Positions 45,011 to 51,793 of a stretch of 64,000 nt of DNA are shown here, in pieces. Made by a program: the position numbers and the translations under genes. The stretch covers positions 1,550,001 to 1,614,000 of the forward strand of contig NC_019964.1 in NCBI RefSeq assembly GCF_000328525.1, written 5' to 3'. Positions within the stretch are counted from its first letter, which is position 1, and each line of letters starts with the position of its first letter. This DNA is from Halovivax ruber XH-70 (GTDB lineage Archaea > Halobacteriota > Halobacteria > Halobacteriales > Natrialbaceae). Below the pieces are notes generated by a model that was not told the DNA's origin, did no database searches, and was given only the letters and a program-made list of their open reading frames with translations.

Positions 45011-46060
45011 CTACGGACTGGCGAGATCGATGTCTCGAGCGTGGGCGAGGAGTTCCTCGTCGTACCTGCTGGCCGTCTGCTGGGGCGCTCGGTCGTCTAT
45101 CGCTCTGACGAGCGAGACCGTGTTGCGGAAGTTCTTGATCGTCGCCTCGTCGATCATCTGGCCGTCGATCGATACGGCCCCCGTTCCATCATCCAGAGCG
45201 GCCGTCGCGCGCTCGATTCGATCGAGGGCGCGTTCGAGTTCGTCGGGGAGCGGCATGTGGACGTGGTTGGCCTGGACCGTCTGCTTCGGGTGCAAGGACC
45301 AGGAGCCGTCGAGACCGAGGTGGGCCTCGAGTTCGACCTGTTCGGCGTACGCCTCGGCGCGATAGGCAGTGACGCCCGCGCGCGTCGTGAACAGTTCGTC
45401 GAAGGGGCCGCCGATCGCGAGGAGATCATTCGCGCTCGTCTCTATCGAGAGTGCTTCGAGCGTCCCATCCCATCGAGGGCGACCGGATCCGACGTCCCGC
45501 CCGCCGAGCTGGGCGGTGTAGTCGACGGGACCGAAGACGATGGCCGAAAGTGGTGTGTCAGCCGCGCGATGGGCGATCTCTCGAAGTGCTGATCGTGCCT
45601 GTGCGGTTTCGAGAATAATCGCGAGTCCGATCTCGTCCTGGGGAACGTCGTACGTCTCGCGCACGTCCGCGAGGGTCCGACACACGCGGTCGAAATCCTC
45701 GATCCCGCCGACTTTCGGGACGACGACACCGTCGACGTGCTCGTCGACCTCGCGTACCAGGGTCTCGATCTGATCGCGACCGCGTTCTCGCAGTTCGGCG
45801 CTCGTGTCGCTCCACTCGATTCGTGGCCAGCACTCACCGGCGAAATCGTGGGTTCCCAGCAGGTCGACCGTGTTCTCGAGCGCCTCGTCTTTCATCGAGG
45901 GTGCCGTGCCGTCCTCGAGGTCGGGGACGAGCCAGTCGGGTGCCTCGAACCCCTCGGCGGTGAGTCCCGAACGCAGGTACTTCGCCGTATCGGCCTTCGG
46001 GACGGCGGCCGGGGCGGTCTGGAAACTTCGACAGAGTCGTGTCGTGTCGGTGGTCGTCAT
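45011..46060 (-). CDS. HpcH/HpaI (CitE-type) lyase, putative beta-methylmalyl-CoA lyase
   Basis: The 349-residue TIM-barrel aldolase of the CitE family shows the PDLEDGTAPSMKDEA motif, GVVVPKVGGIEDF, IILETAQAR and FGPVDYTAQLGG, with acidic metal ligands for Mg. In the methylaspartate cycle, beta-methylmalyl-CoA is cleaved to glyoxylate and propionyl-CoA, and the gene lies 64 nt after the hydratase gene that produces this compound. Substrate assignment follows from context. It is the last gene of the minus-strand cluster. Confidence 0.88.
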   Translation of the reverse strand: MTTTDTTRLCRSFQTAPAAVPKADTAKYLRSGLTAEGFEAPDWLVPDLEDGTAPSMKDEALENTVDLLGTHDFAGECWPRIEWSDTSAELRERGRDQIETLVREVDEHVDGVVVPKVGGIEDFDRVCRTLADVRETYDVPQDEIGLAIILETAQARSALREIAHRAADTPLSAIVFGPVDYTAQLGGRDVGSGRPRWDGTLEALSIETSANDLLAIGGPFDELFTTRAGVTAYRAEAYAEQVELEAHLGLDGSWSLHPKQTVQANHVHMPLPDELERALDRIERATAALDDGTGAVSIDGQMIDEATIKNFRNTVSLVRAIDDRAPQQTASRYDEELLAHARDIDLASP

Positions 46061-46124: not shown

Positions 46125-47309
46125 CTACGGTCTGGTCTGGATTGCCGCGAGTCGTCGACCCGAGTAGACCGGTTCGTCTCGCTGATTGAACGCGATGTGC
46201 TGGAATCTGACGAGGCCAGCCCTATCTGCGGGTATCTCGCCGTCGAACGCGGAGAGAGGGCTCGGAGTCGATCCGTCCGTCGAGGACAGTTCGACCGTCT
46301 CGAGCACCCGGGTGAACCCGTAGATCGTGTCTCCCGGCGTGACGAAGGTGTGGAACCGTTCGTCGTCGAACCCGAGGTCGCGGTAGGTCGCCTCGTCCGA
46401 CCGGGCGTGTCCGAGGGCGATCGATCTGGACACGTCGCCGTAGGCGACGATATCGCCCGACGGGGCGTCGGCCATCGCGTCCACGTTGTGGTGCTGCTTG
46501 GCGGTGTTGAGGGTCGAGAGTGGCAACGTCGCGACGGTCACGTCGTCGATCGTTCGCCCGCGTTCGTGTCGGTAGGCCGCGACGCCGTCGTGATCGGTGG
46601 CCGTTTCGAGTGTGGCGACGAAATCTTCGAAGTGAGGTCCCTCGGGAGCGACGAACGGGCCACTCGGGATATCCGCACCCTCCTCTTCCCTTTCGCCCTC
46701 TTTTTTCGCTTCTCCCTCTTCCGCCTCCGCTCCTCCTTCCGCTTCCTCCGCTCCGCTAGCCTCGTCGGCCGACGCTGGGCCGCCATCGGTGACGCGGGCG
46801 GGTTCTCGCCGCGGAATCATGTTGGTCCGGTCGTACGAACAGAGTGGTTCGCCCGTCTCCGCATCGAGCCCCGTCGTTCGCCAGGTGACGATCGCATACG
46901 ACGGACGGGATCCCGACTCCTCGACCGACAGTACCTCGCTCTCGACCCGGAGTTCGGTACCTGGGTAGACGTCGCGATGGAATCGCCCGTTCGTCCGCCC
47001 GAGGAAGTACCCGCCCTTCTCACTCAGATCTTCGACGGTGATCCCCAGCGTCGCGGCGAGCAGGTAATCCGGATGGATCGGGCGCTCGTCAAAATCCGCG
47101 TCTGCGGCTCGGTCTGTCCGCCAGTACGTTGGATCGTGATTCAGCGTTTGACTCGTCCACAGTTCGGTGCCCCACTGTGAGAGGACGAGCCCAGGGTCGT
47201 GTTCGATGACGTCACCTTCGTCGAAGAACTCCGCGTAGTGGCCGGTTTCCAGCGTCTCACTGTGGTCGAGGACGTGACCGAACGTTTCCGGATCCGTCCA
47301 GTCAGTCAT
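46125..47309 (-). CDS. mch: Mesaconyl-CoA hydratase (MaoC-like)
   Basis: The enzyme hydrates mesaconyl-C1-CoA to beta-methylmalyl-CoA. The 394-residue protein is a tandem of two hotdog halves (about 1-175 and 220-394); the second half has VSRSIALGHARSDEATYRDLGFDDERFHTFVTPGDTIYGFTRV. The linker holds a Glu/Lys/Gly-rich insert, about residues 181-213, coded by a purine-rich tract; the KKEGEREEE piece is unusual even for haloarchaea. It overlaps mal by 8 nt. Confidence 0.92.
   Translation of the reverse strand: MTDWTDPETFGHVLDHSETLETGHYAEFFDEGDVIEHDPGLVLSQWGTELWTSQTLNHDPTYWRTDRAADADFDERPIHPDYLLAATLGITVEDLSEKGGYFLGRTNGRFHRDVYPGTELRVESEVLSVEESGSRPSYAIVTWRTTGLDAETGEPLCSYDRTNMIPRREPARVTDGGPASADEASGAEEAEGGAEAEEGEAKKEGEREEEGADIPSGPFVAPEGPHFEDFVATLETATDHDGVAAYRHERGRTIDDVTVATLPLSTLNTAKQHHNVDAMADAPSGDIVAYGDVSRSIALGHARSDEATYRDLGFDDERFHTFVTPGDTIYGFTRVLETVELSSTDGSTPSPLSAFDGEIPADRAGLVRFQHIAFNQRDEPVYSGRRLAAIQTRP
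46677..46766 (-). repeat. Polypurine/polypyrimidine coding tract in mch
   Basis: Within the mch linker the coding strand is almost pure purine over about 80 nt (plus strand pyrimidine-rich, TCC/CTC/TTC triplets). It encodes the acidic/lysine linker. Such tracts are prone to slippage and triplex formation and probably vary in length between strains. Confidence 0.6.
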
Positions 47310-48564
47310 CGGCCGGCACCCCCGATTTCGCGTGACGGCGAACCGCGACGGTTCGACGCATCTCGTTCTCGACGAGCATGTAGCCCTCGTCGAACCCCAT
47401 CCCGGGTTTGGCGAGGACCTGGGCGGCGTCGGTGGCGAGCGCGACGTGAGCTGTCGCGCGAGCCGAGGTCGCAGTCTCGTTGCACGTACCGCCGAGATAG
47501 GCGCGCGTGTCCGTCCCGTCGCAGTACGTCACGGCTGCTGCACTCCGCTGGAGCCCACCGAGATCTGGCGTCTTGACCTGCACCACGTCGGCGGCACCGG
47601 CGTCGACGAACGCCTTCACGTCCGCCAGAGTGTTACACCACTCGTCGGCGACGATGTCGACATCGACACCGGCGTCGGCGAGCCCCTCCCGGAGTTCGGC
47701 CATCGCCGAGAGTTGTGCCTCGCGACTGCCGGCGTCCATCGGCCCTTCGATCTGAATATCGGAGGGCGCAGCTGCGTCCTCGAGATCACCGAAGTACTCG
47801 ATCACCCGATCACGATCGAACGGTGGTCCGAACAGGTCGCCGATCGTCCCGTAGACGTCGAGGTGGTACGTTGGTTCGTACCCCGACGGACCGAGCTCGT
47901 CAGTTCGGGCACGGAGCCACTCGACGTACTCGAGAAGTCCGTCACCGGACGGGCCGACTTTTTCGCGGGTGTTGAAGAGTCCGTGCGGGAGAACCGGAAC
48001 GCCGGAGAGGAGCATCTTCTCCGCGTTCGCGTACCGGTCGTCGCCGGATTGTCCGAACACTGGAATCGGCTGGGTCGCCGGTGTCGTGTCGACCGCGTCC
48101 GCGACGACGTCCGTCATCGTCGTGCGCTCAGCGCGGGCTGCAGCGGCGAGCAGTGCCTGTGAGAGGCCATATCTCACTGCCGTATGGAGTCGGTCACCGT
48201 CGGGCGACAGTGATTCGATTGTCGCCGTGTTCGCGGCGAAGGCTGCGGCGTCCCTACCGCGAAGTTCGTCGGCGATCGGTCCCTCGACGAGGTCGACGTA
48301 CTCCGCAGCCTGGAACAACGGATCGCGTCCGCCGGCGCCGCTGTACTGTACGGCAGCGCAATCGCCACGGACGGTCGAGCCGTCCGAGAGGGCGAGCGTC
48401 ACGACGAGGGATTCACCCGGCTGGCGAACCCGATCGAAGCCTGCCGTGACGGGGTCGCCCTCGTAGACGAATCCGTCACGACTGGCGCCCTGGGCGATCG
48501 CTGCCTGGTCGTCGAAGTAGAATCCGGAGACGCCGGGCGTGGCGACGACTGATTCAATCTGCAT
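47302..48564 (-). CDS. mal: Methylaspartate ammonia-lyase
   Basis: This enolase-superfamily enzyme removes ammonia from L-threo-3-methylaspartate to give mesaconate. The 420-residue protein has the HLDVYGTIGDL segment, QIEGPMDAG, and the catalytic lysine segment VQVKTPDLGGLQRS, plus an N-terminal capping domain. It is translationally linked: its start overlaps glmE by 11 nt, and its stop overlaps the mch start by 8 nt. Confidence 0.94.
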   Translation of the reverse strand: MQIESVVATPGVSGFYFDDQAAIAQGASRDGFVYEGDPVTAGFDRVRQPGESLVVTLALSDGSTVRGDCAAVQYSGAGGRDPLFQAAEYVDLVEGPIADELRGRDAAAFAANTATIESLSPDGDRLHTAVRYGLSQALLAAAARAERTTMTDVVADAVDTTPATQPIPVFGQSGDDRYANAEKMLLSGVPVLPHGLFNTREKVGPSGDGLLEYVEWLRARTDELGPSGYEPTYHLDVYGTIGDLFGPPFDRDRVIEYFGDLEDAAAPSDIQIEGPMDAGSREAQLSAMAELREGLADAGVDVDIVADEWCNTLADVKAFVDAGAADVVQVKTPDLGGLQRSAAAVTYCDGTDTRAYLGGTCNETATSARATAHVALATDAAQVLAKPGMGFDEGYMLVENEMRRTVAVRRHAKSGVPADD

Positions 48565-50014
48565 CCGACACCCCACCAGACCGGCTGGACTCTGACGGAC
48601 GCCCGATGAGGCGACCGTTACTGATCGCGTCGACGTCGTCGGCGACCATGTGGAACGAGGTCGATCGATCCTCGGTCTCGGCGCGTCGTTCGAGCCGTGC
48701 GGCGTGGATCTCCTTGATCTCGTCGTCGAAGGCCAGGTCGCCGAAGTCGAACAGTCGAACGCGACCGTCGTCGTCGCGCGCCGGGAGGCAGGCCCCTTTC
48801 GCGCTCTCGCTCGGCGCAAAGGGAACGTCGAGCGCACCTGTTTCGAACGCGCGCACGGCACCGCGGGCTACGTCGCCCTCGCCGTGTTCGAAGACCGCCT
48901 CGAGGAGCGATCGTGTCTCCCGTTCGATCAGGTCCTGTTCGGACTCGACGCCATCGATGTCGAGTCGTTGTTCCATCGCCATATCGAGTAGTTGTCGCGT
49001 CGTCCGCAGTCCCGCGGCGTTTGCCTCCTTCGTCGGCACGCCCTGGAACTCCTGGGGCGACTTGGTGATCACCTTGTCCGGACGTGCGATCGCCGCCGTG
49101 AGCGCTCCCAGCCCGATGACGCCGTTCGCCCGGGCCTCGTCGGGTGGGAATCCACCCATCCACTCGTGGAAGACAGTCGTCACGCACACTTCGTTCGGGA
49201 GGTACTCCTCGCCCAGCGCGCGCAGGGCCCGCAATGCGGCGACGTCCTGGACGACGTTTCCGACCTGTCCGTATCCCAGCGTCAGCGAGCGGACGCCCTG
49301 CGTCGCTGCGAGCAACCCCTCGACGATCATGATCGCGATCGCGATGGACGGGGGGACGAGCGTCCCGGTCAACGGTCCGAAGGGCTCGCGATTGATTCGG
49401 ACCCCGCGTTCGGTGTACACGCCAGCGAGCCGATCGACGTACTGCCAGTGTTCGATCGTCGTCGCCAGGTCGCCGCGCTTGGTGTACGGAATGTTGTACG
49501 AAATCGGGCCCCCCTCGAAGCTCTGGAAGCCGCCAGCGAGTGTGACCGCCGCGAGCAAGCGCGCATCCGGTGTCCCGTGGCGGACTTCGATCGGCCCGTC
49601 GACGGACTCGACCAGCGTGCGACACCCGTCGACGCCGTGATTGACGGCCGGAAAGCCGTTCAACGCGTCGGCGTCGGATTCGCGTGTCTTCTCCAGTCCC
49701 GTCCGTGCCTTCCCGTACTCGTTATCGCGCGTGTAGGAGTCGATCGTCGTCGGCAAGAGATCGGCCTCACCGGTCTCTTCTAAGTACGTGAGAAGTTCGA
49801 TCTGCTCGTCGAGCCTGGCCACCCCGGCCCGTGGTTGCAACAGCGGCTCGGTGGCGGACTCGAGAACGGTCGCGAACTCCTTCGAAGGGGGAAGCCCCTC
49901 GTGGAATGCGATGGCATCGTCGACGGTGGCCGCCTCGCCCGTTGGCCACTCGGCACGAACCGCCTCGTCTATCGTGGCGAGTCCGTCCGACGAAAGTTGC
50001 TCGTCGCGAACCAT
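48554..50014 (-). CDS. glmE: Glutamate mutase epsilon (E) subunit
   Basis: With the S subunit this enzyme rearranges glutamate to methylaspartate by a radical mechanism that needs adenosylcobalamin. The 486-residue TIM barrel has RHGTPDARLLAAVTLAGGFQSFEGGPISYNIPYTK and GYGQVGNVVQDVAALRALR, typical for the substrate-binding subunit. It lies 4 nt after glmS stop and overlaps mal. This is step one of the methylaspartate cycle's C-skeleton rearrangement. Confidence 0.94.
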   Translation of the reverse strand: MVRDEQLSSDGLATIDEAVRAEWPTGEAATVDDAIAFHEGLPPSKEFATVLESATEPLLQPRAGVARLDEQIELLTYLEETGEADLLPTTIDSYTRDNEYGKARTGLEKTRESDADALNGFPAVNHGVDGCRTLVESVDGPIEVRHGTPDARLLAAVTLAGGFQSFEGGPISYNIPYTKRGDLATTIEHWQYVDRLAGVYTERGVRINREPFGPLTGTLVPPSIAIAIMIVEGLLAATQGVRSLTLGYGQVGNVVQDVAALRALRALGEEYLPNEVCVTTVFHEWMGGFPPDEARANGVIGLGALTAAIARPDKVITKSPQEFQGVPTKEANAAGLRTTRQLLDMAMEQRLDIDGVESEQDLIERETRSLLEAVFEHGEGDVARGAVRAFETGALDVPFAPSESAKGACLPARDDDGRVRLFDFGDLAFDDEIKEIHAARLERRAETEDRSTSFHMVADDVDAISNGRLIGRPSESSRSGGVSDAD

Positions 50015-50018
50015 CTGG

Positions 50019-50456
50019 TCAGGAGGTCACCCGGAGGCGATCGGGTTCCGTCGTGAGGTTCAGGTCGCGCCGAAGGGCGTTGATCGCCTCCGTCGGATCC
50101 GTCTCCGGATCGAAGACGCGATCGAACCCGAGCGACTCGAATGTCGCACGCGTCTGAGCGAAGTCGTCCTGGCCGACGGCGAGGTTGCCACCGATGTAGG
50201 TGACCGCGTCGACGCCAGCGTTCTCGAGGTGGTCGTGGAACCCGGTGCAGTCCTGTTCGGCGTGCCCGTACAGCGACGAGACGAGGATCGCGTCCGCGTC
50301 GTGGTCTGTCGCGGCCGCCACGAACTCCGCCTGCTCGGTCTGGACGCCGAGGTTGACCACCTCGAACCCAGCTGCGTCGAGCGCTCGTTCGAGTATCGTG
50401 ACGCCAACCACGTGCGCGTCGGAGCCGATCACCCCGAGGACGACTGTTGTCGGCAT
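50019..50456 (-). CDS. glmS: Glutamate mutase sigma (S) subunit, B12-binding
   Basis: The 145-residue Rossmann-like cobalamin-binding subunit has the B12 signature DAHVVG (DxHxxG at about 13-18) with His as lower cobalt ligand, the VSSLYGHAEQD and TYIGGNLAVGQDD segments. It heads the minus-strand operon glmS-glmE-mal-mch-citE. (The same gene name is used elsewhere for a different amino-sugar enzyme.). Confidence 0.94.
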   Translation of the reverse strand: MPTTVVLGVIGSDAHVVGVTILERALDAAGFEVVNLGVQTEQAEFVAAATDHDADAILVSSLYGHAEQDCTGFHDHLENAGVDAVTYIGGNLAVGQDDFAQTRATFESLGFDRVFDPETDPTEAINALRRDLNLTTEPDRLRVTS

Positions 50457-50482
50457 GGATGCAGAACCATGATAGATCGGGG

Positions 50483-50509
50483 CTTAAAGGTAATGATTTA
50501 TCATGATAA
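50483..50509. promoter_or_regulatory. Shared divergent control region with ATGAT/ATCAT dyads
   Basis: A TATA-like element for glmS (minus strand CCTTTAAG, plus 50483-50490) is about 30 nt before its start. Just upstream of it, 50498-50509 is a perfect 12-nt palindrome, TTATCATGATAA, overlapping a second inverted repeat ATGAT-TT-ATCAT (50493-50504). A related ATGATAGATC lies at 50469-50478. On the plus side CTTATAC (50515-50521) could drive mct. A regulator bound here could coordinate both arms of the cluster. Confidence 0.55.
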
Positions 50510-50617
50510 TAGTCCTTATACGCCTTTGTATGAGTCACGTTGACACGGCATGGCTGAGAGTAGCTCCGACGGGATCCGGTAGAAAACGTTAACCCCGTCT
50601 TCGAGTTACGCCGGAGC

Positions 50618-51793
50618 ATGGGAGCACTCTCGGACGTGCGCGTGCTGGACCTGACGCAGGTGCTTGCAGGGCCGTACTGTACGATGTTACTCGCCGACAT
50701 GGGTGCCGATGTCGTCAAGATCGAACGGCCGGGCGGCGATCTCATCCGATCCAATCCGCCGTACGTCGACGATCCGGACGCCGAACCCTACGGTGGCTAC
50801 TTCCAGAGCGTCAATCGCGGCAAACGAAGTATCGAACTCGACCTCGCCGGGGACGACCGCGACACGTTCCTGGACCTCGTCGAATCGGCCGACGTCGTCG
50901 TCGAGAACTACCGCGCGGGCACGATGGAGTCGTTCGATCTGTCGTACGAACGACTCGCCGAACACAATCCCGAACTGATCTACGCGTCGATCCGTGGCTT
51001 CGGCGATCCGCGAACGGGCAAGACAGATCGCCAAGGGCAGCCAGCGTTCGACATCATCGCGCAGGCACTCGGCGGCGTGATGGAGATCACGGGCGAGGCC
51101 GACGGGCCACCGATGAAGGTCGGTCCCGGCATCGGGGACCTGTTCACGGCGACGCTCAACTGCATCGGCATCCTCGGCGCGCTCCACCACCGCGACCGGA
51201 CCGGTGAGGGCCAATACGTCGACACGGCGATGTACGACTCGATGCTCAGTATGACCGAGCGCGCGATCTACCTCCAGTCCTACGAGGGCGAGGCGCCGAC
51301 TCGCTGTGGCAACGCCCATCCGACACTCTTCCCGTACAATGCCTACGAGGTCGCGGACGGCTACGTCGTGGTCTCCGCGTTCGGCACCAACCACTGGCGG
51401 GCGTTCTGTGCGGCCATCGACAGGCCTGGCCTCGCCGAGGAGTATGCGACCCCAGCCGCTCGCCTGAAACACCGTGAGTCTCTCTACGACGAGATCGCCG
51501 CCTGGATGCGCGAGCACGAGACGGCCGACGTCATCGACCGGCTCGAGGGTGACGTTCCAGTCGCTCCCGTCCAGGACACCGAAGCCATCTTCGCCGACGA
51601 CCACGTCCACGATCGAGACATGCTCTACGAGGTCGAACAACCCGGTGCAGACGAGTCCGTTCGCATCGCCGGCAGCGCGATCAAGATGAGCGAGACGAAT
51701 CCCGAACCCCGGGGACGCGCCCCGATTCTCGACGAACACCGTGAGGAGATCCTGGCCGAACTCGCCGCACAGGAACAGGCTATCGACGAGTGA
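50618..51793 (+). CDS. mct: Succinyl-CoA:mesaconate CoA-transferase (CaiB family III)
   Basis: The enzyme moves CoA from succinyl-CoA to mesaconate, giving mesaconyl-C1-CoA for Mch. The 391-residue class III CoA-transferase has the VLDLTQVLAGPYCTMLLADMGADVVKIERP signature, NRGKRSIELDL, and the nucleophile Asp 174 in GIGDLF. It is divergent from glmS. Substrate assignment rests on the complete methylaspartate set around it. Confidence 0.92.
   Translation: MGALSDVRVLDLTQVLAGPYCTMLLADMGADVVKIERPGGDLIRSNPPYVDDPDAEPYGGYFQSVNRGKRSIELDLAGDDRDTFLDLVESADVVVENYRAGTMESFDLSYERLAEHNPELIYASIRGFGDPRTGKTDRQGQPAFDIIAQALGGVMEITGEADGPPMKVGPGIGDLFTATLNCIGILGALHHRDRTGEGQYVDTAMYDSMLSMTERAIYLQSYEGEAPTRCGNAHPTLFPYNAYEVADGYVVVSAFGTNHWRAFCAAIDRPGLAEEYATPAARLKHRESLYDEIAAWMREHETADVIDRLEGDVPVAPVQDTEAIFADDHVHDRDMLYEVEQPGADESVRIAGSAIKMSETNPEPRGRAPILDEHREEILAELAAQEQAIDE

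Follow-up and report, generated by a model that had tools for sequence, protein, structure and literature searches.

A direct-repeat promoter element common to the glmS and aceA operons of haloarchaea

Background

Some haloarchaeal activators, such as Bat at bop and GvpE at gas-vesicle promoters, have sites that adjoin the TFB-recognition element, and several TFB paralogues are present in haloarchaea. In bacteria, aceBAK is controlled by IclR. The ace operon of Haloferax volcanii was reportedly the subject of a study in 2001.

According to PMC7746861, H. volcanii requires aceA to grow on acetate, and this paper, together with PMC5592240, forms the literature basis for the haloarchaeal glyoxylate cycle. 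In Haloarcula hispanica, PMC10817205 describes TrmB sites that mostly activate when upstream of the core promoter and repress when overlapping the BRE; the methylaspartate operon is raised in the trmB mutant without glucose, an effect which the authors call indirect. No description of the element reported below was found in the open-licence literature, subscription papers lying outside that scope.

The window analysed here is a stretch of 64,000 nucleotides from Halovivax ruber XH-70 (NC_019964.1, positions 1,550,001 to 1,614,000), in a genome of 3,223,876 bp; the same glmS locus is also found on a contig of Halovivax asiaticus (L161). Five methylaspartate-cycle genes of the window (glmS, glmE, mct, mch, and that for malyl-CoA lyase) are above the NCBIfam cut-offs (Table 1), and 161 gene-free bases separate the start of glmS (50456, minus strand) from that of mct (50618, plus strand). 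Like the sites of Bat and GvpE, the element at glmS is placed just upstream of the BRE/TATA of its promoter.

Table 1. Genes and promoter features around the glmS-mct intergenic region (positions within the window)
Feature	Position	Strand	Basis and remarks
Malyl-CoA/beta-methylmalyl-CoA lyase	45011..46060	-	NCBIfam, 586 bits (cut-off 500)
mch, 2-methylfumaryl-CoA (mesaconyl-CoA) hydratase	46125..47309	-	NCBIfam, 562 bits (cut-off 560)
glmE, methylaspartate mutase subunit E	48554..50014	-	NCBIfam equivalog, 688 bits (cut-off 390)
glmS, methylaspartate mutase subunit S	50019..50456	-	NCBIfam equivalog, 204 bits (cut-off 110)
Half site CCATGATAG nearer glmS	50467..50475	.	Partly conserved within the family; outside the element common to glmS and aceA
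glmS TATA-like box TTTAA	50484..50488	-	Sequence; TTTAT or TTTAA in relatives
28-bp promoter element TATTATCATGATAAATCATTACCTTTAA, ending in the glmS TATA-like box	50484..50511	-	aceA-trained matrix, 46.5; core in 106/115 glmS-bearing family genomes
Proximal half site ATCAT (AYCAT in relatives)	50493..50497	-	Alignment of 30 loci; adjoins the TFB-recognition/TATA region
Perfect palindrome TTATCATGATAA	50498..50509	.	Specific to the window's genus; 4/30 aligned loci (L001, L002, L003, L021)
Distal half site ATCAT	50503..50507	-	Alignment of 30 loci; 10 bp from the proximal half site
CCTTATAC, TATA-like box in mct orientation	50514..50521	+	CATTAAGGAA or TTTAAGGAG in relatives; CATTAACGAA at aceA
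mct-proximal core promoter TAGAAAACGTTAACC, remnant of the second element copy of other genera	50580..50594	+	No mct-strand matrix match at this place in L001, L002, L003, L021; match at -53 to -60 in 25/30 loci
mct, succinyl-CoA:mesaconate CoA-transferase	50618..51793	+	NCBIfam equivalog, 719 bits (cut-off 700)

Results

The palindrome upstream of glmS

An earlier note on this DNA had drawn attention to a perfect 12-nt palindrome between glmS and mct as a possible operator for both directions. Its description of the DNA holds: TTATCATGATAA is present with that sequence and position, is overlapped by a second dyad (ATGAT-TT-ATCAT on the plus strand), lies just upstream of the glmS TATA-like box (9 nt from TTTAA), and is accompanied by a related half site, CCATGATAG, closer to glmS. 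TTATCATGATAA is the sole match at up to two mismatches within the window, where 0.21 such matches are expected; at least one was obtained in 15 of 100 shuffles. Taken alone, the palindrome is only mildly unlikely to be of chance origin; what far exceeds chance is the conserved element that encloses it.

Conservation of the palindrome itself failed when the glmS-mct intergenic regions of 30 family loci were aligned. It occurs in four of them, all from the window's genus, against 29 that carry the direct repeat ATCAT-N5-AYCATTA (ATCAT-N5-AYCRTTA is present in all 30), and the palindromic dyad was therefore rejected as a conserved operator. The CCATGATAG half site was found neither at Haloarcula glmS nor in the aceA promoters inspected. 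It is very improbable that the dyad is a binding site serving both directions: TTATCATGATAA is perfect in the window and in three further loci of the genus, and, read on the mct strand, it scores weakly with the matrix (8.5 bits) in a genus with an eroded mct copy, but it is missing from 26 regions in which the direct repeat stays, and from the aceA promoters inspected. The sequences suggest, instead, that the palindrome is a by-product of a spacer peculiar to the genus. It possibly stands in, in part, for the lost mct copy there.

The conserved element at glmS

The alignment reveals, on the glmS strand, the block TATTATCAT-N5-AYCATTA-NN-TTTA, in which the direct repeat ATCAT-N5-AYCAT, with a spacing of 10 bp (one helical turn), runs into the glmS TATA-like box. 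From the spacing of this box, the glmS transcript is predicted to be nearly leaderless.

The 23-bp core of the block, ATCATN5AYCATTANNTTTA, was searched for exactly in 125 genomes of the family. It is found once per genome in 106 of the 115 glmS-bearing genomes, in all 106 just 5' of glmS, although related genomes are not independent. Nine genomes have a strong glmS match and no exact core. None of the ten genomes with only a weak glmS match (E above 1e-9), which were counted as lacking glmS, contains it, and the reversed core, used as a control, gave a single match across the 125 genomes.

The position of the element is equally regular. With a matrix derived from 26 aceA sites, the glmS site of the window scores 46.5 bits, and the next match (8.5 bits) is on the other strand and overlaps it. 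Relative to the glmS start, the top glmS-strand match starts between -54 and -59 in every glmS-mct region of two sets, one of 30 and one of 55 (the larger set being 58 less three that could not be measured, and the two sets having genomes in common), i.e., in a fixed register directly upstream of the BRE/TATA. This test is partly circular, since the aceA sites had been located with glmS-derived patterns. Among the 1022 one-kb strand tiles from the 74 named loci, with one real site each, 71 maxima reach 20 bits. In the host genome, a scan allowing up to two mismatches gave 36 pattern matches, compared with 23 for the reversed control, and the runner-up among the 30 of them that were scored reaches only 21.3 bits, against 46.5 at glmS; therefore, no wider regulon is seen in this genome.

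Entry of the element into the TATA-like box at a fixed spacing, in every locus of both sets, is what would be expected of an extended core promoter, for example the preferred sequence of one TFB/TBP paralogue, rather than of a regulator site. Such an explanation is rather unlikely, considering that conservation extends a full turn past the BRE, and a general promoter class is disfavoured because a core found once per family genome is too rare. A regulator site is preferred: the cluster is probably one copy of a haloarchaeal cis-element, TATTATCAT-N5-AYCATWA-NN-TTTWT, which abuts and enters the TATA-like box and would be read by a shared regulator (see Discussion).

Some Haloarcula-type genomes (g47) have two glmS genes with the element at each (L061 and L062 in G276; L063 and L064 in G391); the two loci of G391 appear almost identical.

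The element before aceA

The exact pattern TATTATCATN5AYCATTANNTTTA was used to scan genome_contigs, a collection stated to hold 84,980 species, from which near relatives of the window were possibly left out. Of the 107 stretches returned, 93 stand directly before glmS (64) or aceA (29, including L123, L127, and L163, in which the stretch ends within aceA). One, from Halorubrum californiense (L212), has the typical ace leader ORFs and stops short of aceA, one from Halorussus litoreus (L202) has the element upstream of a GNAT gene, and 12 are bacterial. The bacterial matches, some of them interrelated (three Clostridia MAGs, two Desulfosporosinus, and seven others), are taken as chance in AT-rich DNA. 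The 64 glmS and 29 aceA stretches show that two non-homologous acetate-assimilation operons, glmS and ace, have one promoter element in common in many aceA species. The element is rare elsewhere and has the same register before both operons.

As to the identity of the ace genes, AceA of L068 is above the Pfam ICL and PEP_mutase cut-offs and below the NCBIfam isocitrate-lyase cut-offs, and AceB (malate synthase) of L080 scores 849 bits against a cut-off of 780. Of the 26 aceA stretches listed, none contains a close AceB, and six have just 27%-identical matches. Because a close AceB is not alongside, the glyoxylate cycle of those 26 species is deduced from AceA and the haloarchaeal literature.

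A matrix derived from glmS sites only, with its TATA end removed, is free of the circularity mentioned above. It gives at least 29 bits upstream of aceA in 22 of 30 aceA loci, with an opposite-strand maximum of 0.5, and no good copy in the other eight; these loci favour one family, since they were selected as the closest to the AceA first met through the core. For a broader sample, 20 regions upstream of aceA that lack the core, from diverse genera, were scored with a pooled glmS and aceA matrix. Seventeen score at least 22 (e.g., TATTAACATTATAAATCATAAAGGTTTTT), the opposite-strand maximum being 18.1, and three have no good copy. A poor distal half is seen in three of the seventeen (L221, L223, L236).

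In a survey of 392 genomes of the order, the core (up to one mismatch) is present in 145 of the 151 that have glmS, in 61 of the 155 that have only aceA, and in 17 of the 86 that have neither, while the backwards control matched 19 genomes; these figures, compiled by hand from lists, represent presence per genome and not position. The core is thus missing from 94 of the 155 aceA-only genomes, and the claim for aceA is narrowed accordingly. Several other aceA loci have a diverged copy at best, and aceA is without the element in the three family genomes owning both pathways (G033, G043, G045). At the aceA of these three (L109, L258, and L259, respectively) another common sequence, resembling CTAGATTTGTACTAG, takes its place.

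The two operons are not homologous and their N5 spacers differ, often GGAAG or GAAAG at glmS versus TATCA or TATAA at aceA, so that the elements might be look-alikes for different regulators. This is improbable, because the matrix of each class recovers the other in the same register and with high scores. Outside the family, a TATAA or TATAG spacer is found at some glmS loci (L063, L067, L071). The outer part of the element is also alike, with CATTAAGGAA at some glmS loci and CATTAACGAA at aceA.

The ace operon often opens with a mini-ORF of 29-38 aa, located 51-66 nt after the element start, whose C-terminus is proline-rich (RPPQPPTRPDDDT in Halorubrum; YRPPTPPT and PPIPPTRPT elsewhere). Next comes a Thr-rich ORF (about 70-125 aa) that has one or two APLVP motifs, and then aceA. 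Examples are L113, L117, L122, L131, L169, L066, L069, L086, L088, L147, and L212. Pfam gave no match for two of the Thr-rich second leader ORFs.

Copies at other genes

Among the 17 core-positive genomes with neither gene, eight belong to one genus (g45) and have the element before a GNAT gene. At the g45 loci (L075, L077, L238-L245, and L202, the last from Halorussus litoreus), the GNAT acetyltransferase gene is mostly preceded by a mini-ORF of its own beginning with MGR; the element in L245 is a weak variant. In the remaining nine genomes, 11 sites were inspected and their contexts are mixed. Variant sites lie upstream of small Pro-rich ORFs in L248, L249, and L250 (G290, G292, and G301), followed in L248 and L249 by what appears by eye to be a ribbon-helix-helix-like protein. 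A 95-aa DUF5789 protein in L255 (G417, g47) has a strong extra element (44.1 bits) before it, and similar extra sites occur in G360, G401, and G411. G214 (L079) has five variant sites, three of which are GTCATTAACGATCATTACCTTTA; close to a site in L079, a metal-type ABC transporter and a gene resembling DtxR were recognised by eye. The G214 sites perhaps represent an unrelated regulon.

The mct side

In many genera a second, weaker copy is present on the mct strand in the same register (e.g., ATCATGATCTATAGTAAAGGTTTT). In the set of 30 loci, 25 have their best mct-strand match between -53 and -60, with scores of 6.1-30.1; in the set of 55, the best match of 49 lies between -53 and -61. With the matrix lacking the TATA end, 13 of the 30 best mct matches keep their position; part of the mct signal is therefore the TATA end, and the claim for mct is narrowed. 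The match in Haloarcula is poor (about 7-12 bits, with ATCAT not clear). In the window's genus (L001, L002, L003, L021) no mct-strand match was found at the usual mct position, and remains resembling GTAGTAAGG are seen at the mct side in L003 and L021. CCTTATAC, listed in Table 1 as a TATA-like box, may belong instead to the outer part of the element.

The suggestion in the earlier note that one regulator sets both the minus operon and mct thus survives in part: it agrees with the conserved element at glmS and with the weaker same-register copy of many genera, but joint control of mct is least certain in the very genus of the window, where the mct copy is eroded.

Discussion

The comparison of promoters makes it probable that one conserved haloarchaeal regulator, likely an activator, binds at both glmS and ace, in each case directly ahead of the TFB/TBP site. 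The putative regulator, encoded away from the locus, would contact both half sites from the same side of the helix, given their 10-bp spacing, and would help to recruit TFB/TBP when acetyl-CoA must be assimilated. The second, weaker copy would let the same protein drive mct, and would have decayed in the window's genus. As the earlier note had remarked for this locus, no regulator gene adjoins: none was recognised by eye in the gene clusters recurring around the element at the 74 named loci (stretches of up to 8 kb with uneven flanks).

Activation is favoured by the position of the element upstream of the core promoter, following the rule for TrmB in PMC10817205. Repression retains a share, since the proximal half site adjoins the core promoter, abutting the TATA-like box, and the TrmB-repressed genes in that source had BRE-overlapping motifs. 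A repressor site is nevertheless unlikely, for the distal half site is one full turn further out and the bulk of the element lies ahead of the core promoter. What PMC10817205 says of the methylaspartate operon, namely an indirect effect of TrmB, is in keeping with a separate regulator. The TrmB regulon described there resembles the control proposed for glmS in that it concerns sugar and gluconeogenesis control and its upstream sites activate; the TrmB motif, a 19-bp partial palindrome, is set apart by description from the glmS element, which is a direct repeat.

There is perhaps an even chance that the regulator and its element predate the choice of pathway, and that whichever operon is in use took up or kept the same element. 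A single acetyl-CoA-anaplerosis switch would then govern either pathway, with lineage-specific extras such as the GNAT acetyltransferase in Halorussus. If this is true, one switch has been kept while the pathway beneath it was exchanged. The element provides a ready bait for the regulator, and from it the same protein is predicted to act in Halorubrum, with isocitrate lyase, and in Haloarcula and the Natrialbaceae, with the methylaspartate cycle.

Among the known systems, Bat and GvpE are likened to the present one by position alone; here, in contrast, a 10-bp direct repeat stands before central-metabolism operons with no regulator gene adjoining. The likeness to IclR and aceBAK is one of role, as in both cases one regulator would adjust acetate anaplerosis, but the haloarchaeal element, unlike the bacterial system, serves two non-homologous alternative pathways.
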